NCBI RefSeq assembly: GCF_005298075.1
Contig: NZ_SZZH01000004.1
Location: forward strand, 124,001 to 188,000
Direction: 5' to 3'
DNA: 64,000 bases
Origin: Nakamurella flava
GTDB taxonomy: Bacteria > Actinomycetota > Actinomycetes > Mycobacteriales > Nakamurellaceae
In this document: positions 30,008 to 54,591 of the stretch, piece by piece
Numbering within the stretch: the stretch's first letter is position 1
Layout: the number at the start of each line of letters is the position of its first letter
Notes under the pieces: generated by a model
What the model was told of the DNA's origin: nothing
Seen by the model: only the letters and a program-made list of their open reading frames with translations
The model's database searches: none
Position numbers and translations under genes: made by a program

Positions 30008-30026
30008 TGCGGGATCGGCAGTGATC

Positions 30027-30814: not shown

Positions 30815-30889
30815 CCGAGCGGATCCGGGCGCTGCGAGCCGCTGTTCGGCCGTCGCACCCGTGCCTGACCACCGGGCGCGCAGACAGGT

Positions 30890-30931: not shown

Positions 30932-30957
30932 GGTCCGGTGGCCGTCCTGCGGCCTTC

Positions 30958-33370: not shown

Positions 33371-33377
33371 CAGGGCC

Positions 33378-34709: not shown

Positions 34710-34753
34710 GGGATGTCGGTCTCCGGGGCTCGTGGCTGAGGTGTCTCGAGAAC

Positions 34754-35521: not shown

Positions 35522-36414
35522 GCGTACACCACTTCCGGTTCAGGTTCGAAGATGCGGGCGGACTCGATGCCGGGCAGCCCGGTGAGGTAGCGGTACTCGC
35601 TGGCCATCGCGACCCAGCGGTCGGTCTCGGCGATGACGGCCGGCTTGCAGGCGATCGCGTCGCGGACGACGGCAAAGGAGTTCTCGGTCGCGACCAGCAG
35701 CGTGTAGAAGCCGTCGAAGCGTTCGCACAGCAGGCGCAGCGCCTTCTCGACGTCCGCCCCGGCGGCCAGCTGGGCGGCGACGAACCGGGCTCCGACCTCG
35801 GTGTCGTTCTCCGAGTCGAAGGTGATCCCGTCGGCCATCAACTCGCGGCGGATGGTCGCGTGGTTGGCGAAGGAGCCGTTGTGCACCATGCACTGGTCGG
35901 GGCCGACCGAGTAGGGGTGGCTGCCGGTGGAGGTGACGGCGGACTCGGTGGCCATCCGGGTGTGGGCGACGCCCTGGTAGCCGGTGGCCTCCGCCAGCGA
36001 GAACGTGCTGGCCAGCGCATCCGGATGGCCGGTGCCCTTGAGCACCGACAGTGCGGTGCCGCGACTGGTCAGGACGGCCTCCGGCAGCGCGGCCCGCACG
36101 GCGGCCTCCAGATCGGCGGATCCGGCGGCGGCGGTGAACAGGGCGGTCTGACCGGCGACGCGTTGGTCGACCGGCCGGCCCAGGAGCGCGGTGACGGCGG
36201 CAGCGGCGGCCACGGCGGCATCCGTCGTGGCCGGCCCGTCGACGACGCAGACGGTGGACCGACCCGCCGGGTTCAGCGATGGATCGCCGTAGATGCCGAT
36301 GCCCGCGGCATCGGTTCCCCGCTCGGCGGCCTGACACAGCATGCCGCCCAACAGTTGTCCGAGTCGGGGACGGAGTTCGTCGTCCCGCAGATGGAGCCCG
36401 GCGATACCGCACAT
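35509..36414 (-). CDS. Class II glutamine amidotransferase subunit (GlxB/MgsA type)
   Basis: The 301-residue protein starts MCGIAGLHLRDDE, giving an N-terminal Cys nucleophile after Met removal. AAERGTDAAGIGIYG and a later TRMATESAVTSTGSHPYSV and MVHNGSFANHATIRRELM segment complete the Ntn-hydrolase glutaminase. It delivers the amide nitrogen or, in MgsA, handles gamma-glutamylmethylamide. The ATG at 36412-36414 is chosen because GGAGG lies 7 bases upstream and Cys must be residue 2. It leads three overlapping or closely spaced subunit genes, downstream of a glutamine-synthetase-like gene. Confidence 0.88.
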   Translation of the reverse strand: MCGIAGLHLRDDELRPRLGQLLGGMLCQAAERGTDAAGIGIYGDPSLNPAGRSTVCVVDGPATTDAAVAAAAAVTALLGRPVDQRVAGQTALFTAAAGSADLEAAVRAALPEAVLTSRGTALSVLKGTGHPDALASTFSLAEATGYQGVAHTRMATESAVTSTGSHPYSVGPDQCMVHNGSFANHATIRRELMADGITFDSENDTEVGARFVAAQLAAGADVEKALRLLCERFDGFYTLLVATENSFAVVRDAIACKPAVIAETDRWVAMASEYRYLTGLPGIESARIFEPEPEVVYAWER

Positions 36415-36541
36415 GGGCTTGCCTCCGATTTCCCGGGCCGCACCGCCGTGCGGGCGACCCACTGAAGTGTTGACCAGTAGTAGATCATGTCTCTTGTTGT
36501 GAAACGCAGGATCAGCCGGGTGGGCCCTCTCACACGCCGAC

Positions 36542-37951
36542 TCAGACGGCGGTCAGGTAGCGCTCGACCTCCCAGTCGGTAACGCGCGCATGCCACTCGT
36601 AGAACTCCTCGCGCTTGAGCTGCGCGTAGTAGTCGGCCACTCCGGCCGCGGGCGACACCGAGTCCAGGACCCCCCGGACGACGGCGTCGGACTCCAGCGC
36701 GGCCACAGCATCCAGCAGCGTGCGCGGCAGCAGCGGGGCGTCGGCCGGGCGCGCGCCGGGCGCCCCGGGATCCCGGTCGGACCGGATGCCGGCCAGGCCG
36801 GCGCCCAACGCGGCCGCCACCGCCAGGTGGGCACTGCCCGCTCCGTCACCGGAACGCAGTTCGACCCGCTGGGCGTCCGGCACCCGCACCAGGTGCGTGC
36901 GGTCGTTGCCGCCGTAGGTGGCGGCCCGCGGCGCCCAGGTGGCCCCGGACGCAGTGGAGCTGGCCCCCGTGCGCTTGTAGGAGTTCACGGTCGGGGCGAG
37001 GATGGCCTGCAGACCGGGGGCGTGCTCCAGCAGCCCGGCCACGAAGGCGTAACCGGTCTCCGACAGACCGAGCCCATGGGGGTCGACACCGGCGGACGGG
37101 AAGCGCGGGCCCGCCTCGTCCCAGAGCGAGAGGTGCAGGTGCATCCCGCTTCCGGTGCGGTCGGTGAACGGCTTGGGCATGTAAGTGGCGATCATCCCGC
37201 GCTGCTCGGCCAGCATTTGGATCACGTAGCGCAGCGTGGTGACCCGGTCGGCGGTGGTGAGCGCGTCGGCGTAGTGGAAGTTCTGCTCGAACTGGCCGTT
37301 GCCGTCCTCGTGGTCGCTGGCATACGGCCCCCAGCCCAGGGTGCCCATGGCATCGGAGACCGCGGTCAGGTGGTCGTACATTCGGGTCAGCCCACGGGCG
37401 TCGTAGCAGGGGCGGTCGGCGTCGTCGGCCGCGTCGGCCGTCCGCAGGCGGCCGTCGGCGCCGCGGGTGACCAGGAAGTACTCGACCTCGGCCCCGACCG
37501 ACAACGTCATGCCCAGTTCGGCGGCCGCGGCGATCTGCTGACGCAGGATCACCCGCGGGGCGAACGGGTAGGGATCACCGTTCACGTGCGGGTCGCACTG
37601 CACCATGGCCAGGCCGGGCCGGACGAACGGCAACGGCGTGTAGGACGAGACGTCCGGGACGGCGACGATGTCCGGGTCGGCCGGCACCTGCCCCATCGCG
37701 CCGGCCGCGTACCCGGCGAACCCGCACCCCTCCTCCTGGAGCTGGTCGGCCACGGCGACCGGAACCAGCTTCGCGCAGGGCTTGCCGCTCAACGTGGTGA
37801 AGGTGGCGAGCAGGTGCTGGACGCCGTCCGCGGCGGCGAGCTCGGCCAGGCTCGCGATCGGGGCGGCGGTCGTCGGGGAGGTCGCGACCGAGCCCCCGGA
37901 CCGCGCAGCGATGGGGAGGCGGGTATCGGGCGAGAGCGCGGTGGCGGTCAC
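36542..37951 (-). CDS. Glutamine synthetase-like ligase (GlnT / gamma-glutamylmethylamide synthetase type)
   Basis: The 469-residue protein has the glutamine synthetase catalytic barrel: AEVEYFLV, ASDHEDGNGQFEQNF, GSGMHLHLSLWDEAG (ATP/Glu-binding His), LAPTVNSYKRTG and RVELRSGDGAGSAHL. It is nearer to the GlnT/GmaS subgroup than to GlnA because the tyrosine-adenylylation region is missing. GmaS makes gamma-glutamylmethylamide from glutamate and methylamine. Together with MgsABC-like subunits and an N-methyl amine oxidase it forms a plausible methylamine route. The GTG at 37949-37951 is chosen with GAGGAG 8 bases upstream. Alternative: a polyamine or ethanolamine ligase. Confidence 0.82.
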   Translation of the reverse strand: MTATALSPDTRLPIAARSGGSVATSPTTAAPIASLAELAAADGVQHLLATFTTLSGKPCAKLVPVAVADQLQEEGCGFAGYAAGAMGQVPADPDIVAVPDVSSYTPLPFVRPGLAMVQCDPHVNGDPYPFAPRVILRQQIAAAAELGMTLSVGAEVEYFLVTRGADGRLRTADAADDADRPCYDARGLTRMYDHLTAVSDAMGTLGWGPYASDHEDGNGQFEQNFHYADALTTADRVTTLRYVIQMLAEQRGMIATYMPKPFTDRTGSGMHLHLSLWDEAGPRFPSAGVDPHGLGLSETGYAFVAGLLEHAPGLQAILAPTVNSYKRTGASSTASGATWAPRAATYGGNDRTHLVRVPDAQRVELRSGDGAGSAHLAVAAALGAGLAGIRSDRDPGAPGARPADAPLLPRTLLDAVAALESDAVVRGVLDSVSPAAGVADYYAQLKREEFYEWHARVTDWEVERYLTAV

Positions 37952-37987
37952 GGGCGGAACTCCTCGATGTCTCATGTGAGGCTGATT

Positions 37988-38006: not shown

Positions 38007-38221
38007 GGGCCTCCGTAACAACCATGTATCCGCGGCGTCAGCATCATGTTGCGATGCATGCCAGTGACCATTCGGTGTCGAGAGATTCTGTCGCTGCACC
38101 GTGAGCTCTTGCGCAGTACGAGCGCGGAATTTACGGTTGGTGGACCCGAACGCCCACTGTTGATGTATGCATCATGCGTCACGCCGGCGTCCACGAGATC
38201 GCCACCGCCTCAGGAGCTCGC

Positions 38222-39016
38222 ATGTCGTGTGCCCCACTGCCCGACTCCCCCGTGCGGCCGCGACGGGAGGCTCCGTTCGTCCGCGCCGGCATCTTTCCCC
38301 CGGGGCCGGCGCTTCGCCGGCCCGACGGGACCGCGGCACGGGTGGAGCGGGTGACCAGCACCCGGATGCCCCTGGCCCAGGGCCTGTTCACCGCCATCGG
38401 GTACCGCGATCGCGTCACCGGCGACGAGATCGTCGCGCTGGTGATGGGTCTGGACGTCCCCGGGGAGACCGATGGGCCCGCGACGGCCGCCGGCGCAGGT
38501 CGCTCCGACGGGGAGCCGGTCCCCGTCCGCCTACATTCGGAGTGCCTGACCGGGGACGGGTTCGGCTCCCTGCGCTGCGACTGCGGCCCGCAACTGCAGG
38601 CCGCCTTGGCCGTCGTGGCGGAGGCCGGCCGCGGCGTCGTCGTCTACCTGCGCGGCCACGAGGGCCGCGGTATCGGACTGCTCGACAAGCTGCGGGCCTA
38701 CCGCCTGCAGGACGCCGGCGCCGACACGGTGGACGCCAACCTCGCGCTCGGCCTGCCCGAGGACGCCCGCGAGTACGGCGGCGCGGTCGCGGTCCTGACC
38801 GACCTCGGCGTGAGCGCGGTCGCGCTGATCACCAACAACCCGGCCAAGACCCGGGCGCTGACCGGGGGCGGCGTGCGGGTCGTCCGCCGGCTGGCCCTGC
38901 CCGCCGCGGTCACCCCGGCCAACATCGGCTACCTGCGGACCAAGCGCGACCGCATGCACCACCAGTTCGGTCCGTCCACGGCCCCGGGGCCGGACGAGGC
39001 CACCAGCCGCCGATGA
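38222..39016 (+). CDS. GTP cyclohydrolase II
   Basis: The 264-residue protein has the RibA core: [24 protein letters not shown] with the three zinc Cys residues, [19 protein letters not shown] with the catalytic Arg and Tyr, and [22 protein letters not shown] at the C-terminus. It converts GTP to a diaminopyrimidine, the first step to riboflavin or to deazapurine-type compounds. It is a stand-alone GCH II, without the RibB domain usual in actinobacterial RibBA, and no other rib gene is nearby. It may boost flavin supply for the FMN/FAD enzymes here or serve a separate pathway. The ATG at 38222 has AGGAG 5 bases upstream. Confidence 0.85.
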
Positions 39017-39567
39017 CGGCTCGGCCGCTCGTCCGGTTCCGCGACCGGCGACCCCAGCCCTGGGCCAACGGCCTGGGCAGCACCACCGAGCTACTCGGGT
39101 GGTCCGACGGCCCCGGGCTGTTCGGATCCGATGGTCCTGCGTGGCGCCTGAGCATCGCCCGGCTCGACGGCCCTGCGCCCTTCTCACCGCTCCCGGGCGT
39201 CGACCGCCACTTCCTGCCGATCGGTGCGGACGTCCGGCTGCGCATCGCCGGGGCGGACATCCCCGTGCCGGCCGGCCAGGTCTGCCGGTTCTCCGGCAAG
39301 GACGTCGTGGAACTCCTGGATCTGACGTCGGCCCCGGCCTTCGCGGTGAATCTGATGGTCCGTGCATCCGGGGGCGGACCGGAACTGGTGATGGCCGACT
39401 CCCACGACCCGCGCTGCGCCGCGGCGATCGCCGCGCTCACCCTGACTCCGGGCGGCGGGTTCGGTCGGTTCGACATCGTCCGCCCCCACGCCGGTCTCGC
39501 GTCCGGCCCGGCGCTACCGCTGGCCCTGGTGCTCCCCGGAGCGGCGCCCGGCCCGACGATGGTCTGA
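39013..39567 (+). CDS. HutD-family cupin protein
   Basis: The 184-residue protein shows the HutD/Ves pattern: [52 protein letters not shown] and [15 protein letters not shown]. HutD proteins occur in histidine-utilisation loci and are thought to act as a governor or binder of an intermediate; the chemistry is unknown. The ATG overlaps the stop of the GTP cyclohydrolase gene (ATGA), so the two are co-translated. No other hut gene is in the window, so this is an unusual setting. Confidence 0.82.
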
Positions 39568-39626: not shown

Positions 39627-40667
39627 TCAGCCGAACGCCGGGACGACCTGCTCGATGAACAGGGCGAGCGAGCGCTTCTTCTCCTCGTGCGACATCCCGT
39701 TATCGCACCAGAAGCTGTACTCGTCCACTCCCAGCTGCTCGTAGTAGCGAATGCGCTCGATGACCTCGTCCGGGGTGCCGATCATCGCCGTGCGGTGCAG
39801 CGAGTCGATTCCGAACTCGGGCCGTTCGGCGAACTTGGATTCCGGGCTTGGCTCGAGGAACCCGTCGACCGGGGTGGTCTTGTTGCCGAACCAGGCATCG
39901 AAGGTGCGGTAGAAGCGGTTGACCGCGGTGGCACCGGCGACCCAGCCGTCGGGCTCGTCCGCCGGGTGCACGTAGGTGTGCCGCAAGACCATCAGATCCG
40001 GCCGGGGCACGTCCGGGTTCTCGTCCAGGGCGGCCTGGAACTTGTCGCGGAGATCGACGACCTCCTCGTCGCCCTTCATCAGCGGTGTCACCATCACGTT
40101 GCACCCGTTGCGGACCGCGAATTTGTGCGACTCCGGGTCCCGCGCGGCGATCCAGATCGGCAGTGGCCGCTGGATCGGCTTGGGCACGCTAGTGGAGGTG
40201 GGGAACTGCCAGATGTCCCCGTCGTGGGCGTAGTCGCCGGCCCACAGCTCCCGGACCGCCGGCACCAGCTCGCGCAAGTGGTTGCCACCGCTGCTGGCCG
40301 GGATGCCGCCGGCCATCCGGTCGAACTCGAACTGGTATGCCCCACGGGCCAGGCCGATCTCGGCCCGACCGTTGCTGATGACGTCGAGCAGGGCCGCCTC
40401 GCCGGCCACCCGGGTCGGGTTCCAGAACGGGGCGATGATGGTGCCGGCGCCGAGCCGGATCGTCGACGTGCGAGCGGCGAGATAGGCCAGCTGCGGCATC
40501 GGATTGGGCGAGACGGTGTATTCCATCGAATGGTGCTCACCGATCCACACCGTGCCGAAGCCGCCGGCCTCGGCCATCAGGGTCAGTTCGGTCAGGTCCT
40601 CGAAAAGCTCACGGTGGCTGACGGTCTCGTCCCACCGCTCCATGTGGATGAACAGGGAGAAGCGCAT
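39627..40667 (-). CDS. LLM-class flavin-dependent monooxygenase
   Basis: The 346-residue protein has the bacterial luciferase-like barrel pattern: MRFSLFIHMERW, GFGTVWIGEHHSMEYTVSPNP, ARTSTIRLGAGTIIAPFWNPTRVAGEAALLDVISNGRAEIGLARGAYQFEF. It uses reduced FMN supplied by a partner reductase and O2 to oxidise or cleave an organic substrate. The flavin reductase at 45817-46347 in the divergent operon is the likely partner, as RutA-RutF are paired. It is the last gene of a seven-gene unit; AAGGA lies 8 bases before the ATG. The substrate is not known; a nitrogen-containing ring is inferred from the company it keeps. Confidence 0.88.
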   Translation of the reverse strand: MRFSLFIHMERWDETVSHRELFEDLTELTLMAEAGGFGTVWIGEHHSMEYTVSPNPMPQLAYLAARTSTIRLGAGTIIAPFWNPTRVAGEAALLDVISNGRAEIGLARGAYQFEFDRMAGGIPASSGGNHLRELVPAVRELWAGDYAHDGDIWQFPTSTSVPKPIQRPLPIWIAARDPESHKFAVRNGCNVMVTPLMKGDEEVVDLRDKFQAALDENPDVPRPDLMVLRHTYVHPADEPDGWVAGATAVNRFYRTFDAWFGNKTTPVDGFLEPSPESKFAERPEFGIDSLHRTAMIGTPDEVIERIRYYEQLGVDEYSFWCDNGMSHEEKKRSLALFIEQVVPAFG

Positions 40668-40717
40668 TGCTGGGGTCCTTTTCTCGTTCTCGGACCGTGC
40701 GTCGTCGACGCGGACGG

Positions 40718-41458
40718 TCAGGTGCGGTGGTCCACGGCGGACCGGGCCATCGCCTCGCGGGCGGAGGCCACGACGTGGTCGCGCATGGCGATCTCGGCAC
40801 CCACGCCGTCCTTCTCGAGGATCAGTTCGAGGATGCGGTGGTGTTCGTCGTTGGATCGGTCGAGCCGTTTCGGGTTCTGAACGGTGCGCAGCACCATGCG
40901 GTGGTACGCCATCTGGTTCATCAGGCTGGTGTAGTGCTCGATGAGTTTGTGGTTGTCGCTGCCTTCGACGATGGCCCGGTGGAACTCGTGGACGAGCGCG
41001 GCGTAGCGCTCGCCGTCGTGGCGGGCGGCGGCGATCTCCGAATCGGCGATGTTCTCCCGCAGGATGTCCAGCTCGGGAACCTGCCCGCGACGGGCCAGCA
41101 GGCGGGCGGCCATGCCCTCCAGCACCTCTTTCATCTCGAACATCTCGCCGACCTCACGGCGGCTGATCTCGCGGACGAAAGTGCCGACCTTGGGCCTGAT
41201 CTCGACCAGCCCTTCCACCTGCAGCTGTTTGAGGGCCTCACGGACGGGCGTACGGCTGACGTTGAACATCTCCGCCAGCCGGACCTCGGACAGGGCCGTC
41301 CCCGGGGTGAGCCCGTCGCCGAGCACCATGTCCCGCAACCGGGTCAGCAGGCTGGTGTCCGGCTCCACGCCGGGGCGGATGCCGCGCGGCCGGGAAACCC
41401 CGGAGCCGGCCACATCGGACGAGACGGCCCTGTCCTGCTGATCGCTCATGACCGACAT
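40718..41458 (-). CDS. GntR/FadR-family regulator of the LLM cluster
   Basis: The 246-residue protein has an N-terminal winged helix (LSEVRLAEMFNVSRTPVREALKQLQVEGLVEIRPKVGTFV, residues about 55-95) and a C-terminal FCD domain (HEFHRAIVEGSDNHKL and SNDEHHRILELILEKDG with metal-binding Asp/His). It lies inside the operon, between the tautomerase and the LLM gene, with only 2 bases from the tautomerase stop. It is the natural candidate to bind the CGTCAACCTCTTGACG operator in the divergent promoter region. An internal ATG nine bases downstream is an alternative start. Confidence 0.87.
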   Translation of the reverse strand: MSVMSDQQDRAVSSDVAGSGVSRPRGIRPGVEPDTSLLTRLRDMVLGDGLTPGTALSEVRLAEMFNVSRTPVREALKQLQVEGLVEIRPKVGTFVREISRREVGEMFEMKEVLEGMAARLLARRGQVPELDILRENIADSEIAAARHDGERYAALVHEFHRAIVEGSDNHKLIEHYTSLMNQMAYHRMVLRTVQNPKRLDRSNDEHHRILELILEKDGVGAEIAMRDHVVASAREAMARSAVDHRT

Positions 41459-41460
41459 TT

Positions 41461-41664
41461 TTACGGGAGACCTCCGGCGTCCATCTCGGCCAGGGTGACG
41501 TCGCCGGTGGCCCAGTGCGTGCGGGGCACCTCGTGGACGACCACACGGACGTGCTCGGGCCGGGCCCCCGCGGCGCGGACGACGGCGTCGTGGACCTCGT
41601 GCAGCAGAGCACGCACCTGCTCGGGGCTGCGTCCGGCGGACAGGGTGATCGCGACGTGCGGCAT
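41461..41664 (-). CDS. 4-oxalocrotonate tautomerase-like protein
   Basis: The 67-residue protein begins MPHVAITLSAGRSPEQVRALLHEVHDAVV. After Met removal Pro becomes the N-terminal catalytic base, and the beta-alpha-beta fold and length (about 60-75) fit the tautomerase superfamily. An Arg pair equivalent to Arg11/Arg39 of 4-oxalocrotonate tautomerase is seen at Arg12 and nearby. It isomerises an enol or dienol acid, or hydrates/decarboxylates a semialdehyde acid as in malonate semialdehyde decarboxylase. Gaps of 2 bases on both sides place it firmly in the operon. Confidence 0.8.
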   Translation of the reverse strand: MPHVAITLSAGRSPEQVRALLHEVHDAVVRAAGARPEHVRVVVHEVPRTHWATGDVTLAEMDAGGLP

Positions 41665-41666
41665 CT

Positions 41667-43157
41667 TCAGCTCCGCATCACGAAGGGATCGGCGACCGGT
41701 TCCTCGCTGGTGTTGATCCAGACGCTCTTGAGCCGGGTGTACTCCTTCATGCTCTCCACGCCGTGCTCGATGCCGACGCCGCTGTTTTTGAACCCCTGAC
41801 GCGGCGACATCGGTGACATCGCCCGGTAGGTGTTGACCCAGATGGTGCCGGCCTCCAGGCGATCGGCCAGTCGGTGGGCGCGGGACAGATTGCTGGTCCA
41901 GATGCCGGCGGCCAGACCGTAGTCGGTGTCATTGGCCAGCACGGCGACCTCGTCCTCGGTGTCGAACGGCATGATCGCCGCCACCGGGCCGAAGATCTCC
42001 TCGCGGACCACGCGCATCGAGTTGTCGACGCCGGTGAGCACGGTCGGTTCGTAGAAGTAGCCGCCCAGGCCCCCGCCGTCGGTGGGCCGGCCGCCGGTCA
42101 GCACGGTCGCCCCCTCGCTGCGGCCCAGATCGACGTATCCGGCGACCTTGTCGCGCTGGTCGGCGAACGCGAGGGGGCCGAGCTCGGTGTCGCTGAGCAG
42201 CGGGTCGCCGACGCGAATCGTGCGGGCCCGGTCGGTCACCCGCTCGAGCAGTTCGTCGTAGACGCCCCGCTGGGCGAAGACCCGGCTGCCGGCGATGCAG
42301 GTCTGCCCGGCCGCGGCGAAGATCCCGGCCACCACGCCCATGGCGGCGTTGGCCACGTTCGCGTCGTCGAAGATGATGTTGGGCGACTTGCCGCCCAGCT
42401 CCAGGGTGGTGCCGATGAACCGGGACGCCGCGCTGGCCGCGATCCGGGCGCCCGTGGCCGTACTTCCGGTGAACGAGATCTTGGCCAGCCCCCGATGGTC
42501 CACCAGCGGCTGCCCGGCCTCCACGCCGTACCCGGTCACGACATTGATCGCCCCGGGCGGGAACCCGGCCTCGTCGACCAGCTGGGCCAGGCGCAGCACC
42601 GTGGCACTGGTGTACTCCGACGGCTTGACGACGACCGTGTTGCCCGCGCAGAGCGCGGGGGCCAGCTTGCTGGTGGTCAGGGTCAACGGCGAGTTCCACG
42701 GGGTGATCGCCCCGACCACCCCCAGCGGTTCGCGCTGGGTGTAGTTCAGGACCCGGCGATCCGAGGTGGGGATCACGTCGCCCTGGATCTTGTCGGCCAG
42801 TCCGGCGTAGTAGTGGTAGTACTCCGGCAGAGCGGCCATCTGGCCACGCATCTCGCGCAGCAGCTTGCCGTTGTCCAGTGACTCCATCTCGGCCAGCTCG
42901 TCGGCGTGCTCGCCGATGAGATCGCCCAACCGGCGCAGCAGGTGGCCCCGACGGGTCTGGCTCAGATCGCGCCATCGGGGGTCGTCGAATGCGGCCCGGG
43001 CCGCGGCGACCGCTCGGTCGACGTCGGCGGCGTTCCCGCGGGCCGCCTCGTACAGCGCCTTCCCGGTGGCCGGGTTGGTGCTGGTGAAGTACTCGCCGCC
43101 CGACGGCGGCACCGCAGTACCGCCGATGTGGTGCTCGTAGCGAGTCGGGTGCGTCAT
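41667..43157 (-). CDS. NAD(P)-dependent aldehyde dehydrogenase 1
   Basis: The 496-residue protein has the class 1/2 ALDH pattern: GAITPWNSPLTLTTSKLAPALCAGNTVVVKPSEYT, ISFTGSTATGARIA, TLELGGKSPNIIFDDANV with the catalytic Glu and AAGQTCIAGSRVFAQ with the Cys nucleophile. The end is GVGIEHGVESMKEYTRLKSVWIN. It oxidises an aldehyde to the acid. ATGA overlap with the alpha/beta hydrolase upstream and a 2-base gap to the tautomerase downstream place it in one transcript. It would complete the clearing of a semialdehyde made by the LLM enzyme and hydrolase. Confidence 0.92.
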   Translation of the reverse strand: MTHPTRYEHHIGGTAVPPSGGEYFTSTNPATGKALYEAARGNAADVDRAVAAARAAFDDPRWRDLSQTRRGHLLRRLGDLIGEHADELAEMESLDNGKLLREMRGQMAALPEYYHYYAGLADKIQGDVIPTSDRRVLNYTQREPLGVVGAITPWNSPLTLTTSKLAPALCAGNTVVVKPSEYTSATVLRLAQLVDEAGFPPGAINVVTGYGVEAGQPLVDHRGLAKISFTGSTATGARIAASAASRFIGTTLELGGKSPNIIFDDANVANAAMGVVAGIFAAAGQTCIAGSRVFAQRGVYDELLERVTDRARTIRVGDPLLSDTELGPLAFADQRDKVAGYVDLGRSEGATVLTGGRPTDGGGLGGYFYEPTVLTGVDNSMRVVREEIFGPVAAIMPFDTEDEVAVLANDTDYGLAAGIWTSNLSRAHRLADRLEAGTIWVNTYRAMSPMSPRQGFKNSGVGIEHGVESMKEYTRLKSVWINTSEEPVADPFVMRS

Positions 43158-43879
43158 GAGCTCTCCCGGATGAAGGTGGTGATGGCGGTGACGAAGGCGT
43201 CCGGTTCCTGTACTGGCAGCATGTGCCGGGCGCCCGGGACGATCTGCACCCGGCAGTCCGGCAGGACCTGTGCCAACCGCTCGGACATCGAGGGAGTGGA
43301 CCCGCCGTCGAGTTCGCCGGTGATGGCCAGCGCCGGTGCGGTGATCCGGCCGAGTTCCAATCCGATGTCGGCGTCGCCGGCGGCGAACACCCGGTAGCAG
43401 GCCAAGAAAGATCCGACATCGTTGGCCAGCAGCACCTGCCGGGTGCGGTCCACGGTGGCCTGGTCGACGTCGGTCCCGGCATACCACCGCTCGATCGAGG
43501 CCGCGGCGCTGCCGGCGAAGTCCCGCTCGGCCAGGGCCAACCGGTCCAGGACGGCGGCCCGCTCCTCCGGGGTCCGGCGGCACACCGAGCTGACGCAGGT
43601 GAGGGTCCTGACGAGTTCCGGCCGGAAGCGGGCCAGGTGCTGGGCGGCCAGTGCCCCCAACGAGAACCCGACGACGTGGGAGCCGGGTGGGATCTCGTCG
43701 GCGACCCGGTCGGCCAGCTCCCGCAGGCTCAGGTCCGCTGGGACCGGGGCTCGGCCGCCGTGACCGGGCAGATCGGGTGTCAGCACGGCGAACTCGCCCG
43801 ACAGGCGGGTCACGACCGGTCGCCACATGGTGTGGTCCAGCCCGACCCCGTGCAGCAGCACGATCGACGGTGCAGTCAT
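43154..43879 (-). CDS. Alpha/beta-fold hydrolase (RutD-like)
   Basis: The 241-residue protein has the hydrolase core: IVLLHGVGLDHTMWRPVVTRL (oxyanion HG), LTPDLPGHGGR, HVVGFSLGALAAQHLARF with the Ser nucleophile in GFSLG, ALAITGELDGGSTP for the Asp, and PGARHMLPVQEPDAF for the His. It hydrolyses an ester, an enol-lactone or an acyl-amide. RutD-type enzymes in uracil breakdown have the same size and sit in the same kind of operon. The stop overlaps the ALDH ATG (ATGA). Confidence 0.86.
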   Translation of the reverse strand: MTAPSIVLLHGVGLDHTMWRPVVTRLSGEFAVLTPDLPGHGGRAPVPADLSLRELADRVADEIPPGSHVVGFSLGALAAQHLARFRPELVRTLTCVSSVCRRTPEERAAVLDRLALAERDFAGSAAASIERWYAGTDVDQATVDRTRQVLLANDVGSFLACYRVFAAGDADIGLELGRITAPALAITGELDGGSTPSMSERLAQVLPDCRVQIVPGARHMLPVQEPDAFVTAITTFIRESS

Positions 43880-43894
43880 CGCGTCCGTCCGGGG

Positions 43895-44452
43895 CTAGAG
43901 CTGGTCGGGTGAGAACGCCGCCAGCCGCTGCTGCGGGCGTCCCTGCGCGGCAGCCGCCAGCGCGATGATCAGCTCGTCGGGGTGCGGCGCGTCGGCGATG
44001 CGCACCTCGAGGCTTTGGTGGTGGGAGCGGATGGTGGCGTCGGTGACGTGCTTGAGCGGGATGTCGAAGACGATGCCGGCCGGACCGCGCTTCTCGACCG
44101 CAGGCAGCAGGGTGGTGGCGTTCGCGGCCCGGCGGAAGTGGTTGCCGAAACCGAGGAAGTGGATGAGCCCGGAGCCGTGCTCGATCTCGCCGTTCACCCC
44201 GACGATCGCCGCCTTGCCGAACGCCTCCGCCGGAGCGCCCAGCGCCTCCAACACCCGGGGAGCGAGCAGCGCGCCCAGGTCCGAGCCGTTGGCCTCGATG
44301 CCGGGCGTCAGATCCTGCACGAAACCCTGGCCAGCCCATGGGTTCTGGATGACCGCGGCCACCACGGCGACGCGCGCTGCGGGATCGACCCGACGACCGC
44401 CCTCGGAGTGGGTCTCCTCGACGACGGTCACGATCTTGCGGATTTCTACCAT
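43895..44452 (-). CDS. AA_synth (DUF1185) family protein, second copy
   Basis: The 185-residue protein starts MVEIRKIVTVVEETHSEGGR and carries the family core AEAFGKAAIVGVNGEIEHGSGLIHFLGFGNHFR. The HVTDATIRSHHQSLEVRIADAPHPDELIIALAA tail is shared with the neighbour. The family has known structures but no proven reaction as far as I can recall. Its constant presence beside LLM monooxygenases and flavin reductases suggests hydrolysis or release of ring products. It overlaps the upstream paralog by 7 bases, so the two are made together and may form a heterodimer. Confidence 0.8.
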   Translation of the reverse strand: MVEIRKIVTVVEETHSEGGRRVDPAARVAVVAAVIQNPWAGQGFVQDLTPGIEANGSDLGALLAPRVLEALGAPAEAFGKAAIVGVNGEIEHGSGLIHFLGFGNHFRRAANATTLLPAVEKRGPAGIVFDIPLKHVTDATIRSHHQSLEVRIADAPHPDELIIALAAAAQGRPQQRLAAFSPDQL

Positions 44453-45120
44453 GACAGGTCACTCTCCAGGTGCTGCGCGGCGTTGACGACGGGGTCGGTG
44501 GAACGGTCACCGATGCGGGCGTGCGGCCGCGGCCCGGTGGAGGCCGCAGCGATGACGACGATCTCACCGGCGTGCGGCGCATCCGCCACGCGGGCGCAGA
44601 CCGTCTGGTAATGACTGCGGGTCGCGACGTGCCGCTTGTGCCACATCGGCACGACGAGGGCCTCCCCGGCCTCCGCCCGCGCGTCGGCGAAGCAGATGAT
44701 GGAGTCGCCATCCAGGAAATCGCGCATGAGATTGCCGAAGTACGGCGTGTGGATCAGGGCACCCGCGTGCTCGATCTCGCCGGCCGTGCCCACGATCGCC
44801 GCCTTGCCGAAGGCCTCGATCCGCTCGGGCCCGCCGAGTGCGTCGATCAGGCGGTCGGTCAGCCCCCGAGCCAGCACCGGCGCGATGGCGAACACCTCGT
44901 CGCCCAGATCGGCGGTCGGGTCGGTACCCAGCCAGGGATTGGCGATGACGGCGGCGGCGAAGGCCCGCCGGGCCGGGACGGCCGGGCCCCGTCCGTTCTC
45001 CAGGAGGACGTCCTCGACGCCCAGCACCGTCTTGCGGACACCGGCGAGGACCTGGGGGGCGGCGCGGCCGGAGCCGCCGGCCGACTCCCGGGCATCCCCG
45101 GCGAGGGCGAATGCGGTCAT
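44446..45120 (-). CDS. AA_synth (DUF1185) family protein, first copy
   Basis: The 224-residue protein is a diverged paralog of the next gene, with EAFGKAAIVGTAGEIEHAGALIHTPYFGNLMRDF, a shared HVATRSHYQTVCARVADAPHAGEIVVIAAA tail and a longer N-terminus (VRKTVLGVEDVLLENGRG). The ATG at 45118-45120 is chosen with AAGGA 8 bases upstream. It is the first gene of the leftward seven-gene operon. No function can be given beyond probable involvement in the flavin-monooxygenase pathway. Confidence 0.8.
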   Translation of the reverse strand: MTAFALAGDARESAGGSGRAAPQVLAGVRKTVLGVEDVLLENGRGPAVPARRAFAAAVIANPWLGTDPTADLGDEVFAIAPVLARGLTDRLIDALGGPERIEAFGKAAIVGTAGEIEHAGALIHTPYFGNLMRDFLDGDSIICFADARAEAGEALVVPMWHKRHVATRSHYQTVCARVADAPHAGEIVVIAAASTGPRPHARIGDRSTDPVVNAAQHLESDLSW

Positions 45121-45303
45121 GACAGGTGTCCTTCGTGAGAGGGAACGGAAAACCAGCTGTTGTATGGCAGTCAACGTAACTGCTCGGCCAGCAACGGTCC
45201 ACCCCCTTTTGCAATGAGTAAGTCATCGGCCGGATGGCCCCGCTTCACCAGGTCACTTGGCCTTGTTCATAGTGTTTCCCGTTGTGAACGCCACATTTCC
45301 TGA

Positions 45304-45342
45304 CGTCAACCTCTTGACGGCCTTGCACGTCACTCCTAATCT
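45304..45342 (+). promoter_or_regulatory. Promoter with operator over the -35 of the reductase operon
   Basis: CGTCAA-CCTC-TTGACG (45304-45319) is a perfect 6+6 inverted repeat. Its right arm is the -35 element TTGACG, followed 17 bases later by the -10 TAATCT (45337-45342). A protein bound here would block RNA polymerase. The GntR regulator of the leftward operon is the likely binder. Confidence 0.7.
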
Positions 45343-45388
45343 CGGCTGATCCGCCTACCATGCAACGTCACGCCGGAGATGACCGCAG

Positions 45389-45817
45389 ATGACCATGGAT
45401 TCACCCCAGAAGGCCGCCATTGCGCAGGCCTGGGCCCGCGCCTGGGACGACGGGGACGTCGACGCTCTCGACGATCTGCTGGCTCCGGGTTTCACCCGCC
45501 GCACGCAAGGCTCCAAGACGTCGTTGTCGGCGGACGAACTGAAGAAGGAGATCCGCGCGACCCGCGAGGCCTTTCCCGACCTCGTGACCACGATCGACGA
45601 GATCGTTCTCGACGGCGACCGGGTGGCCATTTTCTGGACCAGCACCGGCACCCATCAGGCCGAGCTGCTGGGCATCCCGGCCACCCGGCGCAAGGTCGTG
45701 ACCTATGGCTCCAATCTCTGCACCCTGTCCGACGGCAAGCTCACCGACGAGCGCGTGACCTGGGATCCCCGGCACCTGCTCACCGCGCTGGGCATCTCGA
45801 CTGTGAGGCACGACTGA
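45389..45817 (+). CDS. SnoaL/NTF2-like ester-cyclase family protein
   Basis: The 142-residue protein has a cone-like NTF2 fold pattern: AWARAWDDGDVDALDDLLAPGFTRRTQG, ELKKEIRATREAFPDLVTTIDEIVLDGDRVAIFWTSTGTH, then VTYGSNLCTLSDGKLTDERVTWD. SnoaL-like proteins act as cyclases, isomerases or dehydratases on polyketide-like or small ring substrates. It is first in the rightward operon, 47 bases after the predicted -10. A nearby second ATG (45395) is an alternative start. The following flavin reductase start overlaps its stop by one base (TGATG). Confidence 0.8.
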   Translation: MTMDSPQKAAIAQAWARAWDDGDVDALDDLLAPGFTRRTQGSKTSLSADELKKEIRATREAFPDLVTTIDEIVLDGDRVAIFWTSTGTHQAELLGIPATRRKVVTYGSNLCTLSDGKLTDERVTWDPRHLLTALGISTVRHD

Positions 45818-46347
45818 TGACCGACGCCCTGTCCACCCCACTGACCGACGAGCCCGATCTGGACGCACTCAAGGGTTTCAACCGGCAGTTCGTCACCGGC
45901 GTGACCGTCGTGACCACGATGGACGACGGCCGCGCCCGCGGACTCGCCGTCAATGCCTACTGCTCGATCTCGTTCGACCCGCCGCTGGTGATGGTGTGCG
46001 TGCAACGCACATCGTCGACCTGGCCCGCCCTGTTCGCCGCGACCCACCTGGGGGTCAATGTGCTGAGCAACCAGCAGCAGGCGGTGGTGGCCACCTTCGC
46101 CTCCAAGCACCCGGACAAGTTCTCCCAGGTCGAATGGCAGCCTGGCCCACACGGTTCCCCGCTGATCCCCGGCTCGGCGGCCATGCTGGAGGCGGAGATC
46201 CGCGAGCGCTTCCAGGCCAAGACCCACACCCTGTTCCTCTGTCGGGTGCGACACGCCCAGGTCGCCGATCTCGCACCGATGGTCTACAAGGCCGGCCGGT
46301 TCTTCGACGGGGCCGATCTGACCGAGCTCGCGTCGGCGACGGGCTGA
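45817..46347 (+). CDS. Flavin reductase (FMN, RutF-type)
   Basis: The 176-residue protein has the flavin-reductase-like split barrel: FNRQFVTGVTVVTTMDDGRARGLAVNAYCSISFDPPLVMVCVQRTSSTWPALFAATHLGVNVLSNQQQ. The SxxPP and GHPD-like turns follow the family. It reduces FMN with NAD(P)H and passes it to a two-component monooxygenase; the LLM enzyme at 39627-40667 is the only such enzyme in the window. Its start shares an A with the upstream stop. Confidence 0.87.
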   Translation: MTDALSTPLTDEPDLDALKGFNRQFVTGVTVVTTMDDGRARGLAVNAYCSISFDPPLVMVCVQRTSSTWPALFAATHLGVNVLSNQQQAVVATFASKHPDKFSQVEWQPGPHGSPLIPGSAAMLEAEIRERFQAKTHTLFLCRVRHAQVADLAPMVYKAGRFFDGADLTELASATG

Positions 46348-46352
46348 GCCCG

Positions 46353-47813
46353 ATGACCCTCACCATCGTGGCCACGGACATGGTTGCCGGGGGCTGGGTC
46401 GGTCAGGACCGGGTGGGCGGCGGCGCCCCCATCACGGTGCACAATCCCTGGGACGGAAGCGTTCTCGCCACCGTCGAACAGCCGCGACCGGCCGACGTCG
46501 AACGCGCCGTGCAGCTGGCGGCCGGTGCCCGTGACGAGCTGGCCCGGACCCCCGCCCACCGGCGCAGCACGGCGCTGCACCACATCGCCGACCGGCTCCG
46601 GCAGCGGCTGGACGAATTCGCCGAGCTGATCACCGCCGAGAGCGGCAAGCCGATCCGATGGTCCCGCGGCGAGGTGCGGCGGGCGGCATCGACCTTCCGC
46701 TGGGCGGCCGAGGAGGCCAACCGGTGGTCCGGTGAGCTGCAGCGACTGGACACCGACCCGGCCGACGAGGGACGGCTGGCCCTGCTGCTGCGGGTCCCGC
46801 GGGGCCCGATCCTGGGCATCACCCCGTTCAACTTCCCGCTCAACCTGGTCGCCCACAAGGTCGCACCCGCCCTCGCCGTAGGCGCGCCGATCGTGCTCAA
46901 GCCGGCGCCGGCCACCCCGCTGAGCGCGCTGGCCCTCGGCGAGATCATCGCCGAGTGCGACCTCCCGGCCGGCGCATTCTCCGTCCTGTGCGTCGACAAC
47001 GCCGGCGCCGCCGATCTTGTCGCCGACCCACGACTGCCGGTGGTCTCGTTCACCGGTTCCGGACCGGTCGGCTGGAGTATCCGCGACGCCGTCCCCCGCA
47101 AGCACGTCGCCCTCGAGCTCGGCGGTAACGCCGCGGTGCTCGTCTGCGACGACTGGTCCAGCCCGGCCGATCTCGAGTTCGCGGCCCGGCGGATCGCCCT
47201 GTGCGCCAACTACCAGGGTGGGCAGTCCTGCATCTCCGTGCAGCGGGTCCTCGTCGATCGGGCCGTCCACGAGGCGTTCCTGCCGCGATTGCTGGCCGCG
47301 GTTGCCGACCTGCGGACGGGCGATCCACGGGACCCGGACACGGATGTCGGCCCGCTCATCGATGCGGCCGCGGCCGACCGCGTCCACACCTGGGTGCAGG
47401 CCGCCGTCGACGCCGGGGCCCGGCTCCTCACCGGCGGGACCCGGACCGGCGCGGTCGTCGCCCCGACGGTACTCACCGACGTCGACCCCCGATCCGCGGT
47501 GGCCTGCGACGAGGTCTTCGGCCCGGTCATGACGGTCGAGACGGTCGACGGCCTCACCCACGGGCTGCGACGCATCAACGACTCGCGATTCGGCATCCAC
47601 GCCGGAGTCCTCACCCACGACCTCGCCACTGCCTTTCGCGCCCACCGGGAGCTCGAGGTCGGCGGTGTGATCATCGGCGACGTCCCGACCGTGCGCGCCG
47701 AGCAACTGCCCTACGGCGGGGTCAAGGAATCCGGCATAGGACGCGAGGGCGTCCGCTCCGCGATGGAGGACTTCACCGATGTCCGCACGCTCGTGCTGTC
47801 CGGCCTGAGCTGA
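46353..47813 (+). CDS. NAD(P)-dependent aldehyde dehydrogenase 2
   Basis: The 486-residue protein is another ALDH, of the succinate-semialdehyde/non-phosphorylating type: GPILGITPFNFPLNLVAHKVAPALAVGAPIVLKPAPAT, VSFTGSGPVGWSIR, HVALELGGNAAVLVCDDW, and NYQGGQSCISVQRVLVD holding the Cys. It is only distantly related to the ALDH in the leftward operon. It begins 5 bases after the flavin reductase. Having two ALDHs implies two aldehyde products or oxidation at both ends of one. Confidence 0.9.
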   Translation: MTLTIVATDMVAGGWVGQDRVGGGAPITVHNPWDGSVLATVEQPRPADVERAVQLAAGARDELARTPAHRRSTALHHIADRLRQRLDEFAELITAESGKPIRWSRGEVRRAASTFRWAAEEANRWSGELQRLDTDPADEGRLALLLRVPRGPILGITPFNFPLNLVAHKVAPALAVGAPIVLKPAPATPLSALALGEIIAECDLPAGAFSVLCVDNAGAADLVADPRLPVVSFTGSGPVGWSIRDAVPRKHVALELGGNAAVLVCDDWSSPADLEFAARRIALCANYQGGQSCISVQRVLVDRAVHEAFLPRLLAAVADLRTGDPRDPDTDVGPLIDAAAADRVHTWVQAAVDAGARLLTGGTRTGAVVAPTVLTDVDPRSAVACDEVFGPVMTVETVDGLTHGLRRINDSRFGIHAGVLTHDLATAFRAHRELEVGGVIIGDVPTVRAEQLPYGGVKESGIGREGVRSAMEDFTDVRTLVLSGLS

Positions 47814-47928
47814 TCCGTTCTCCCCACCGCACTCCCGTTCTGGTACTGCCGCTCTCCCGGCACCGACGCCGCCCGCCCACACCCATTCAGTGAGCCCACG
47901 CTCACCCACTCCAAGGTGGACATCAACG

Positions 47929-49653
47929 ATGGCCAACACCTCCCCACCCCCGGCGGACCCCACCGCCTCCCGATCGACCGACGGACCCGCGAACGAGCGG
48001 CATGCGGTGAACGCCCCGTTCATCGACGCACCCGGCCGGCACGGCGTCGGCGCCGTGTTCGCCGTGTCCGTGGCGCTGCTGGCCGTCTTCGTCCTCTGGG
48101 CGTCGATCTGGCCGGAGAACCTCAACACCGTCATGTCCGCGGCCAGCACCTGGGTCACGTCCTCGATCGGCTGGACCTACCTCATCGTCCCGCTGGCCTG
48201 CCTGATCTTCCTGGTCTCCCTGGTCTGCACCCGCTACGGCGCCATCCGCCTGGGCAAACCCGAGGACCGTCCGGAGTTCTCCACCTGGGCGTGGCTGGCC
48301 ATGATCCTGTCCGCCGTCATGGGCGTGGGTCTGATCAGTTACGGCGTCGCCGAACCCATCTCGCATTTCGCCACCCCACCCCACGGGCTGGCCGAACCGG
48401 AGACCATGGACGCCGCCGTCCGGGCCATGCAGTACAGCTACTTCGACTGGGGCCCCCACGCCTGGGCCATCTTCGCCGTCTTCGGGCTGGCCATCGCCTG
48501 GTCCCGGCATCGCAAGGGCCGGTCCGGGCTCATCTCCCCCATGCTCCGCCCCGTCCTGGGCAAGGCGGTCGACGGCTGGTTCGGCATGGCCATCGACATC
48601 TTCGCCATCCTGGCCACCCTGTTCGGCACCACCACCTCACTGGGGCTCGGCGCCTCGCAGATCGATGAAGGGATGAGCCGGGTCTTCGGCACCCCCAGCG
48701 GCACGGGAGTGCAGATCGCGGTCATCGCCGTCGTGACTGTGCTGTTCACCCTGTCCGCGATGTCCGGGGTGCACCGTGGCGTCAAGTACATCAGCCAGGT
48801 GACCACCGTTCTCGGTGTGGGTCTTGCCGTCTACGTCCTCGTCTTCGGTCCCACCGACTTCGTCTCCAACCTGTTCGTCCGGGCGACCGGCCAGTACTTC
48901 GGAGACTTCTTCTCCACCAGCCTGCTCACCCCGCTGTCCAGTGACGACCTGACCTGGATGCAGTGGTGGACCTACTTCATGATGGCCTGGTGGCTGAGCT
49001 GGGGAGCCTTCGTCGGGGTCTTCCTGGCCAAGATCTCCAAGGGCCGCACCGTCCGGCAGTTCATCCTCGGTGTGCTGGGCGTCCCGACCCTGGTCTTCGC
49101 CGGCTGGTTCACGATCTTCGGCGGCTCCGCCATCAAGTTCGACATGGACGGCGCGCCGATCGTCGCGGCCACCCAGGAGAACATCAACAACGCGTTCTTC
49201 TCGCTGCTCGAAAACCTGCCGCTGACCCAGATCACGTCCATCGCCGCGCTCCTGCTCGTGGCCCTGTTCTTCATCTCCGGCGCGGACGCCAACACCTATG
49301 TGCTGGGCATGCTGTCCTGCAAGGGGACGCTCTACCCGCGGCGTTCGGTGCTGCTCACGTGGGGTGTGCTGACCGGGATGTGCGCCATCGTGCTGCTGCT
49401 GGCCAATGGTCTGCAGGCACTGCAGCAGGCCGCGCTGCTGTCGGCGCTGCCGTTCACCGTGATCGTGACCCTGCTCGGGATCTCCCTCACCAAGGAACTG
49501 CGCAGCGACCCGCACTACCACGCGTTGCATCCGCACGCGCCGGAACTGCCGGCCGTCCCCGGCCCGTTCGTCGACGACAGCCGCGACCTGTACGCCCCCG
49601 AGGACGTCCGGCCGGAACCCGCCGCCGTCCGCACCACGGCCCCCCTGCACTGA
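47929..49653 (+). CDS. BCCT-family betaine/choline/carnitine-type transporter
   Basis: The 574-residue protein has about 12 helices and the BCCT core: MGVGLISYGVAEPISHFATPP, YSYFDWGPHAWAIFAVFGLAIAW, TTSLGLGASQID, and WTYFMMAWWLSWGAFVGVFLAKISKGRTVRQFILGV with the Trp cage that binds a quaternary amine. It imports a trimethylammonium compound by Na+ or H+ symport. Its place at the end of the reductase operon suggests the pathway substrate is a betaine-like or charged N-compound. The ATG at 47929 is chosen with AAGGTGG upstream; the other in-frame start is less convincing. Confidence 0.9.
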   Translation: MANTSPPPADPTASRSTDGPANERHAVNAPFIDAPGRHGVGAVFAVSVALLAVFVLWASIWPENLNTVMSAASTWVTSSIGWTYLIVPLACLIFLVSLVCTRYGAIRLGKPEDRPEFSTWAWLAMILSAVMGVGLISYGVAEPISHFATPPHGLAEPETMDAAVRAMQYSYFDWGPHAWAIFAVFGLAIAWSRHRKGRSGLISPMLRPVLGKAVDGWFGMAIDIFAILATLFGTTTSLGLGASQIDEGMSRVFGTPSGTGVQIAVIAVVTVLFTLSAMSGVHRGVKYISQVTTVLGVGLAVYVLVFGPTDFVSNLFVRATGQYFGDFFSTSLLTPLSSDDLTWMQWWTYFMMAWWLSWGAFVGVFLAKISKGRTVRQFILGVLGVPTLVFAGWFTIFGGSAIKFDMDGAPIVAATQENINNAFFSLLENLPLTQITSIAALLLVALFFISGADANTYVLGMLSCKGTLYPRRSVLLTWGVLTGMCAIVLLLANGLQALQQAALLSALPFTVIVTLLGISLTKELRSDPHYHALHPHAPELPAVPGPFVDDSRDLYAPEDVRPEPAAVRTTAPLH

Positions 49654-53184: not shown

Positions 53185-54591
53185 CTAGAACTCCCCGCGC
53201 ACCAGCTCCTCCACTGCCGCGGCGGCCCCCAGCAGGAACGCGTCCCGCCCGTGGGCGGCGACGATCTGGATGCCGATGGGCAGGCCGTCGGCGGTGCGGG
53301 CGAACGGCAGGCTGACCGCCGGGCACCCGGTGGCGGTCACGTAGTAGGCCGCGCGCATCCAGGCCAGGTAGTCGCCCACCGGCTCGCCGTTGATGTGGCT
53401 CGGGTACTCCTGGTCGGCCGGGAACGGCGGCACCTGGGCGGCCGGCAGGACCAGCAGATCGTGCTCGCGGAAGAACAGCCGCATCCGCTCGGACAGCTGG
53501 GTCCGCAACCGGTAGGCCCGGGCCACGTCCGCGCCCGACAAGTGTTCACCGGCGCGGATGTTCGCTTCCAGTGACGGTTTGAACGCGTCCGGGTTCGCCG
53601 CCAGCAGGGCGCCGAACTTCGCCTGGAAATGCCAGGCCCGCAACGTGCGGAACACCTCGTCGGCCTCGTCCAGCGCCGGATGTTCGGCCGTGACCGTCGC
53701 CCCGGCGCCGGTGAGGGCAGCGGCCGACGACTGCACCGCGGCCGCCACCTCGTGGTCGACCGCGAACGCGCCACCCAGGTCCACCGAGACCGCGACCCGC
53801 CGCCCGGCCAGCGAGACCGGTTGCGCCGAGGCGAACGTCGAGCCGGGATCCCCCAGCGCCTGCGGCGCCCGCGGGTCGGGTCCGGCCATCACCGACAGCA
53901 GCAGGGCCAGGTCGCCGACGTTGCGGGCCATCGGCCCACCCACCGATGTCGTCTCCCACTGGTTGTAGAGCGGCCACTCCGGCACCCGCCCCAGGGAGGG
54001 ACGCAGACCGACCACCCCGCAGAACGACGCCGGATTGCGCAACGACCCGGCCATGTCCGAACCGTCCGCCAACGGCACCATCCCGGCGGCCAGCGCACAC
54101 GCCGCACCCCCGGAGGAACCGCCGGCCGACCGGCGCGGATCGATCGGGTTGCGGGTGAGCCCGAAGACCCGGTTGAAGGTGTGCGATCCGGCGGCGAACT
54201 CCGGCACGTTCGTGCGACCGATGACCACCACCCCGGCCCGCCGGACCCGTTCCACGATCAACTCGTCCTGCTCGGGGACGTGGTCGGCGAACAGCGGCGA
54301 GCCGTAGGTGGTGGGCCATCCGGCGACGGCGTGGGTGTCCTTGAACGCGAACGGCAGCCCGTGCAGCGGACCCAGTGGCCCGCCGGCGGCCTGGGCCTCG
54401 TCGGCGGCCGCGGCCGCGGCCCGGGCCCGTTCCGGATCGAGCGAGACGACGGCGTTCAGCTCGGGGTTGCGGTCGGCGATCCGGTCCAGGTGCAGGTCGA
54501 GCAATTCCCGGGCGGAGATCTCTGACCGCCGGAGTGCGGCCAACTGCTTGCGGGCCGACGAGTCGACCGTCAGAGCGTCGGACGAGCTCAC
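53185..54591 (-). CDS. Amidase-signature hydrolase 2
   Basis: The 468-residue protein has the amidase triad Lys84 (FAFKDTH), Ser159 (SAGGSSGG) and Ser183 (DGSDMAGSLRNPAS), and is a close paralog of the amidase next to the barbiturase. Its GTG start overlaps the CoxG stop by 4 bases (GTGA). It therefore belongs to the permease-molybdoenzyme operon. Two related amidases in one proposed regulon suggest two amide steps, or separate handling of the uracil and thymine branches (malonyl- and methylmalonyl-type products). Confidence 0.86.
   Translation of the reverse strand: MSSSDALTVDSSARKQLAALRRSEISARELLDLHLDRIADRNPELNAVVSLDPERARAAAAAADEAQAAGGPLGPLHGLPFAFKDTHAVAGWPTTYGSPLFADHVPEQDELIVERVRRAGVVVIGRTNVPEFAAGSHTFNRVFGLTRNPIDPRRSAGGSSGGAACALAAGMVPLADGSDMAGSLRNPASFCGVVGLRPSLGRVPEWPLYNQWETTSVGGPMARNVGDLALLLSVMAGPDPRAPQALGDPGSTFASAQPVSLAGRRVAVSVDLGGAFAVDHEVAAAVQSSAAALTGAGATVTAEHPALDEADEVFRTLRAWHFQAKFGALLAANPDAFKPSLEANIRAGEHLSGADVARAYRLRTQLSERMRLFFREHDLLVLPAAQVPPFPADQEYPSHINGEPVGDYLAWMRAAYYVTATGCPAVSLPFARTADGLPIGIQIVAAHGRDAFLLGAAAAVEELVRGEF

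Follow-up and report, generated by a model that had tools for sequence, protein, structure and literature searches.

A divergent gene cluster of Nakamurella flava with paired AA_synth proteins as a probable actinobacterial variant of the trigonelline pathway

A cluster of eleven genes occupies positions 39,627-49,653 of a 64,000-nucleotide stretch of the Nakamurella flava genome (contig NZ_SZZH01000004.1; the whole stretch is hereafter called the window). The cluster probably serves the catabolism of trigonelline (N-methylnicotinate), or of a very close N-methylpyridinium carboxylate, by an actinobacterial variant of the Tgn/trc pathway. Trigonelline, a betaine common in plants and in coffee, serves as a nutrient near legume roots. 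Since it is the betaine of nicotinate, the betaine-like or quaternary amine substrate at which an earlier note on this DNA had hinted is indeed likely. The reading draws on the gene families, on conserved co-clustering and co-occurrence, on linkage to methylamine-type genes and on the presence of the same core set on Sinorhizobium meliloti pSymA, all of them observed directly. Hallmarks of the variant are a duplicated AA_synth (DUF1185) gene, a tautomerase, a SnoaL-like protein and an operator-like motif, with a BCCT importer in most cases.

Each of the 11 open frames received a family assignment in a Pfam scan, and all the genes named in the earlier note are among them. They form two divergent runs: AA_synth 2, AA_synth 1, alpha/beta hydrolase, the first aldehyde dehydrogenase (ALDH1), tautomerase, GntR and luciferase-like monooxygenase (LLM) on the minus strand, and SnoaL, flavin reductase, ALDH2 and BCCT on the plus strand. 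The features, with proposed roles that rest on sequence comparison, are as follows.

39627-40667, minus strand: LLM flavin-dependent monooxygenase (PF00296, 2.3e-59), candidate ring-cleaving oxygenase, TgnA-like
40718-41458, minus strand: GntR/FCD protein (PF07729, PF00392), candidate local regulator, absent from the earlier note
41461-41664, minus strand: 4-oxalocrotonate tautomerase-like protein, accessory (PF01361, 1.3e-15)
41667-43157, minus strand: ALDH1 (PF00171, 1.7e-172), candidate hydroxybutyrolactone dehydrogenase, TgnC-like
43154-43879, minus strand: alpha/beta hydrolase (PF12697, 1.3e-22), candidate N-methylformamido-methylene-succinate hydrolase, TgnD-like
43895-44452, minus strand: AA_synth copy 1 (PF06684, 1.6e-58)
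44446-45120, minus strand: AA_synth copy 2 (PF06684, 1.5e-53, scanned from 45174, to which the open frame extends; the ATG is likely at 45120)
45389-45817, plus strand: SnoaL-like protein, accessory (PF07366, 8.7e-27)
45817-46347, plus strand: flavin reductase (PF01613, 4.9e-38), candidate supplier of reduced flavin to the LLM, TgnB-like
46353-47813, plus strand: ALDH2, role uncertain (PF00171, 9.8e-135)
47890-49653, plus strand: BCCT transporter (PF02028, 2.8e-168), candidate betaine importer

The trc region of S. meliloti pSymA was reportedly described by Boivin in 1990/1991. On pSymA of strain ABS7 the core set has noeB on its left and nifT on its right, and strain 1021 carries the same core. 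AA_synth, hydrolase, flavin reductase, LLM and ALDH stand in a row there, with a succinate semialdehyde dehydrogenase (SSADH) gene close by that scores 695.1 bits against a curated cut-off of 646.35. According to the growth results given in PMC4207669, wild-type S. meliloti can live on trigonelline as its only source of carbon and a delta-pSymA strain cannot. From replicon, place and phenotype, we infer that the pSymA core cluster is the trc region. It differs from the window in having an ABC importer, a NIPSNAP protein and a single AA_synth gene, and its LLM is 51-52% identical to that of the window.

The tgn genes of Acinetobacter baylyi, reportedly characterised by Perchat in 2018, are said to comprise ALDH, hydrolase, SSADH and transporter genes. 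The later steps are said to lead through hydroxybutyrolactone and formamido-methylene-succinate to methylamine, formate, CO2 and succinate semialdehyde, reportedly with the help of a conserved hypothetical protein, which may be AA_synth or a CMD-like protein (encoded beside SSADH in the plasmid locus L167 of Acinetobacter junii). In PMC8269262, TgnA/TgnB is presented as a two-component flavin oxygenase that opens the ring. The L167 locus holds the tgn families plus AA_synth: AA_synth, hydrolase, flavin reductase, LLM, ALDH, an NCS1-type permease and SSADH (694.7 bits, same cut-off), adjoining FolD and sarcosine-oxidase-like genes.

A two-component flavin oxygenase of this type is predicted in the window also, by family and by neighbourhood. 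The window LLM is 49-52% identical over its full length, and the flavin reductase 34-35%, to the A. junii and S. meliloti counterparts; ALDH1 (45-46%) and the hydrolase (27-30%) likewise match those clusters and lie beside the oxygenase as in Tgn/trc. The window departs from tgn in its two AA_synth copies, tautomerase, SnoaL, BCCT and short flavin reductase, and in an ALDH2 that is no clear SSADH; unlike L167, it has no CMD-like or NCS1 gene among its 11 cluster genes. The earlier note had been unable to match the gene set to a described pathway, a view not borne out by the core set in the trigonelline-linked symbiotic region of pSymA and in A. junii, there with SSADH and sarcosine-oxidase-like genes. 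Gene order in these named systems is similar to that in the window, though not identical. For the actinobacterial set itself, no paper assigning a function was found among those listed in searches of an open-access library.

Drawing in part on earlier work, we infer a route in which the BCCT protein would import the betaine and the LLM with its flavin reductase would open the ring directly. ALDH1 would convert the resulting hydroxybutyrolactone to N-methylformamido-methylene-succinate, from which the hydrolase, helped by AA_synth and perhaps by the tautomerase and SnoaL, would yield formate, CO2, methylamine and succinate semialdehyde. Succinate semialdehyde would enter the tricarboxylic acid cycle through an SSADH, the adjoining N-methylglutamate (NMG) synthase-like and glutamine synthetase-like genes may take up the methylamine, and GntR would control both divergent operons through TTGYATRSMA sites. 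For the hydrolase, a close relationship to alpha-(N-acetylaminomethylene)succinate hydrolase was unsupported: structure 3KXP was matched only at 3.8e-10, behind eleven other rows, among them esterases, BioH and an enol-lactonase.

Within its own order the cluster occurs sporadically, the LLM (E <= 1e-40) being present in 4 of 298 genomes, N. flava included, and in 3 of 76 genera; at the same threshold none was found in the 16 other genomes of the genus among those listed. Comparison of the window genes with fetched loci by tblastn revealed the set in eight other Actinobacteria: Arthrobacter dokdonellae (L007), two Geodermatophilus (L015/L020, L017/L055), two Nocardioides (L019, L089), Mycolicibacterium wolinskyi (L016/L084), Mycobacterium sp. 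Root135 (L053) and Streptomyces lomondensis (L081). Both AA_synth genes, hydrolase, ALDH1, flavin reductase and LLM occur in all eight, at about 54-85% identity, as do SnoaL and a GntR gene, with tautomerase in seven and BCCT in five; among the 7 actinobacterial loci in a set of 80 genome loci the last two were found in 6 and 5, respectively. Such repeated co-clustering indicates a grouping beyond chance. Two gene fusions, SnoaL with flavin reductase in A. dokdonellae and hydrolase with flavin reductase in Mesorhizobium (L008), link both the hydrolase and the SnoaL gene with the oxygenase system. GntR genes are found beside the clusters of many relatives. Betaine-type transporters, BCCT or ProX-type ABC systems, occur in several lineages, in keeping with the trigonelline reading.

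In Proteobacteria a single AA_synth gene accompanies LLM, flavin reductase, hydrolase and ALDH, the core being carried by replicons of S. meliloti, Ensifer, Mesorhizobium, Ruegeria, Paraburkholderia, Azospirillum, Agrobacterium, Pantoea and Acinetobacter. ALDH1 is 42-53% identical to the proteobacterial ALDH adjoining LLM or AA_synth. Genes for a NUDIX hydrolase with a Zn-ribbon and for a CMD-like protein also recur beside pathway genes (L158, 3270-3824; L076, L088, L095, L096).

Pseudomonas LLMs are 76-81% identical to that of the window and mostly accompanied by flavin reductase and an NCS1-type permease, with AA_synth usually apart from them; in Pseudomonas sp. DTU12.3 (L043) two adjacent LLM matches, of 79% and 73%, were seen. 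AA_synth lay within the stretch in only 12 of the 80 genome loci, 7 of these 12 being actinobacterial. It was present somewhere in the genome in all 22 LLM-bearing genomes searched (19 Pseudomonas and 3 Actinobacteria, picked for having the LLM from 73 and 7 loci, respectively) and in none of 14 control genomes. In four Pseudomonas places read (L151, L152, L153, L162) AA_synth forms a block with hydrolase, ALDH and flavin reductase, joined in the first three by a GntR gene. A sample of 341 Pseudomonadales genomes, centred on one (G300) chosen for having the LLM, gave nine with LLM (E <= 1e-80) and 15 with PF06684, all nine lying within the 15. AA_synth was thus present in 9/9 genomes with LLM versus 6/332 without (Fisher p = 3e-14, or 7e-13 for 8/8 versus 6/332 when the centre genome is omitted; kinship uncorrected). 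The surroundings of AA_synth were read for two of these six genomes (L165, L166) and for the copies L156 (G318) and L164 (G570), and LLM and hydrolase were absent from all four; near AA_synth lie a BCCT gene and a NUDIX-like frame in L166 and ALDH genes in the other three. Its occurrence in genomes and places without LLM indicates that the AA_synth family extends beyond this route.

Methylamine, a predicted product, has possible takers close to the cluster, 1.7 kb away.

33378-37975, minus strand: NMG synthase-like genes (GltS-like, GXGXG/FwdC-like, amidotransferase) and type III glutamine synthetase, linked to the cluster and outside its core

The amidotransferase, GXGXG and glutamate-synthase domains (PF13522, PF01493 and PF01645) were found here beside the type III glutamine synthetase (TIGR03105, 574.6 bits, above 469.6), as expected of an NMG synthase with a GMAS-type synthetase, scores by which methylamine- and ammonia-using forms are not told apart; we propose that these genes handle methylamine. 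The GltS-like gene is 82-83% identical to Pseudomonas copies near LLM. At least two NMG synthase-like (mgs-like) genes were counted in 10 of the 80 loci and at least two mgd-like genes in 7, together 17 of 80 near LLM, and methylamine-type genes also occur in L014, L157, L163 and L167. Sarcosine-oxidase-like heterotetramer genes with FolD or PurU, and NMG synthase-like genes, stand near LLM in several arrangements, the methylamine-type genes preceding LLM in some Pseudomonas and following it in others. Family scans found the heterotetrameric genes in L167 and L022, where we take them to encode NMG dehydrogenase. The wider neighbourhood in the window (28631-37975) holds an ammonium transporter, N-carbamoylase/allantoate-amidohydrolase-like and sarcosine-oxidase-like genes beside the NMG synthase-like genes. 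These genes lie on one strand with an N-carbamoylase-like gene and an oxidase, and they may also be used for other amines.

Several observations weigh against the trigonelline assignment. In the LLM tree the window protein groups with those of Actinobacteria and Pseudomonas in one clade (support 100/99), the S. meliloti and Acinetobacter proteins forming a separate one (99/96), so that a shift of substrate is possible; identities to the window LLM are 76-82% within the former clade and 43-64% across the remaining lineages examined. Between the window hydrolase and the proteobacterial cluster hydrolases identity is only 27-38%. ALDH2 has no match above 39% in the eight other actinobacterial clusters, scores 307.5 bits with the SSADH model TIGR01780 (cut-off 646.35) and is 37% identical to the A. 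junii SSADH, for which the genome holds a 46% match at another place, on contig C2; because the best SSADH match is there, ALDH2 is retained as an SSADH only as uncertain. As for methylamine, 63 of the 80 loci, which are mostly from Pseudomonas and not independent, fell below the methylamine-gene count, some on short stretches; the sarcosine-oxidase-like genes of L167 score below the curated sarcosine-oxidase cut-offs; and in N. flava a single query for a sarcosine-oxidase/NMG-dehydrogenase alpha subunit, the SoxA-like protein of L167, found at best a 36% match, on contig C6.

The position of the window LLM, apart from S. meliloti and Acinetobacter, is the reason why trigonelline itself is held to be probable and no firmer, some substrate among the N-methylated pyridine compounds at large being more likely still. 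The same chemistry, LLM ring cleavage with release of an amine, might act instead on another N-heterocycle such as N-methylpyridinium, N-methylnicotinamide, nicotinate or homarine. The separate clade is consistent with this, as are the differing importers of the relatives (BCCT, NCS1 or ABC) and the Sulfitobacter locus L169, where an AA_synth pair adjoins a gene annotated as 6-hydroxynicotinate reductase. Downstream genes are, however, kept in both LLM clades, with SSADH or methylamine-type genes in some loci of each, and for homarine the text of PMC8269262 argues that TgnA/TgnB action is unlikely for steric reasons; in the same source R. pomeroyi grew more poorly on homarine than on trigonelline. 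We regard this alternative as unlikely, though the most serious of those considered.

The BCCT gene could also point to degradation of carnitine, choline or glycine betaine, and the best NCBIfam match of ALDH1 is indeed betaine-aldehyde dehydrogenase; its 508.6 bits nevertheless fall below the cut-off of 668.6, and on this ground the betaine-aldehyde/carnitine route was rejected. In relatives NCS1 or ABC systems stand in for BCCT, and a two-component LLM oxygenase and AA_synth are not known to have a place in these routes, which we consider very unlikely here. Likeness to the Rut pathway for pyrimidines, to which the earlier note had compared the LLM, flavin reductase and hydrolase, extends to the sharing of these broad families and to nothing closer. 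The curated RutD and RutF cut-offs are far from reached (54.5 against 238.5 bits and 76.4 against 254.75), RutA structures were matched at 2.9e-4 or worse, no RutB, RutC or RutE family was found among the 11 cluster genes, to which that search was confined, and ALDH1 and AA_synth are foreign to the pathway. Membership of Rut was rejected on the unmatched scores and missing families, in agreement with the earlier note's own view that the set as a whole does not fit Rut, and a divergent Rut pathway is scarcely credible.

The two AA_synth copies of the window score 197.5 (copy 1) and 181.3 bits (copy 2) with PF06684 (gathering cut-off 27), and no further match at E <= 0.001 exists in the N. flava genome (4.84 Mb, 13 contigs). 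Alignment of 50 AA_synth sequences (47 different) gave 20 invariant residues, including E89, E91, H92, H144, R172 and R176, all retained in both window copies. Section 3.3 of PMC2954203 describes conserved salt bridges and histidines at the interface of BB2672, and the invariant residues match those interface residues, as given there, in motif. The AA_synth tree has a copy 1 clade (99/94) and a copy 2 clade (100/99), each of 10 rows from 9 clusters and subject to a long-branch warning. Copy 2 ends in RPHARIGDR, as do most proteobacterial copies (RPHHRIGDR and similar), and copy 1 in RPQQRLA.

An AlphaFold2 model of copy 1 was superimposed on BB2672 (3BYQ; Z 23.0, root mean square deviation (rmsd) 2.2, 173 aligned) and on SPO0826 (2QTP; Z 21.4, rmsd 1.3, 144 aligned). 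Both proteins lack an assigned function, and the gene neighbours cited in section 3.3 of PMC2954203 point to branched-chain amino-acid metabolism and transport. Foldseek returned only the three DUF1185 chains at E <= 0.001, and the later rows of the VIA comparison, at Z <= 7.1, favour none (PurM 7.1, chorismatase 6.2, Rid 5.8, barbiturase 5.2); the Rid match, PA0814, has rmsd 3.6 over 114 aligned residues, with many unrelated rows of like Z. Tentatively, AA_synth, a family at present named after amino-acid synthesis, may be a hydrolase or isomerase of aminomethylene-dicarboxylate enamines or imines that frees methylamine (or ammonia) once the ring has been opened. The actinobacterial form would be a hetero-oligomer of two gene products, with the C-terminus RPHxRIGDR retained in copy 2 and RPQQRL in copy 1. 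It would then be the pyridine-ring counterpart of RutC/RidA in Rut. This suggestion, of an enamine or imine step shared by pyridine routes, was made because an AA_synth pair also occurs in the perhaps pyridine-related context of L169, a pair distant in the tree. That Sulfitobacter plasmid region (1523-8585) further holds molybdopterin-type dehydrogenase genes and UPF0280, and perhaps encodes another, homarine-like, pyridine-carboxylate route; its protein annotated as 6-hydroxynicotinate reductase had no Pfam match.

An operator-like motif lies between the divergent operons.

45160-45169, no strand assigned: TTGYATRSMA, 40 bp upstream of AA_synth copy 2

This is its single match in the 64-kb window, against 0.09 expected. 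In nine actinobacterial clusters, counted by hand (window, L007, L015, L016, L019, L053, L055, L081 and L089, the second loci L020, L084, L154 and L155 being omitted), 15 of 18 distinct sites fall in or at the edge of the divergent region, the other three following the LLM of L019. Because the motif was chosen by eye from the very promoter regions that were afterwards searched for it, finding it there carries no independent weight, whereas its near absence from the rest of the stretches does.

Adjoining the cluster, at 38174-39567, are genes for GTP cyclohydrolase II (riboflavin synthesis) and a HutD-family protein; the former may be relevant as a flavin supply gene. Further along, at 53185-63934, is a second N-heterocycle island with an amidase, CoxG, a three-subunit molybdenum hydroxylase, a xanthine/uracil permease, a PucR-type regulator, AllH and a CoA-ligase protein, presumably FdrA-like.

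The cluster gives the Actinobacteria a likely trigonelline route and shows how such a route varies: in its importer, in its small accessory proteins, in the duplication of AA_synth and, in many Pseudomonas, in a split into two places. AA_synth, a family represented by two orphan crystal structures, is thereby placed in a definite pathway, at a step open to experiment.

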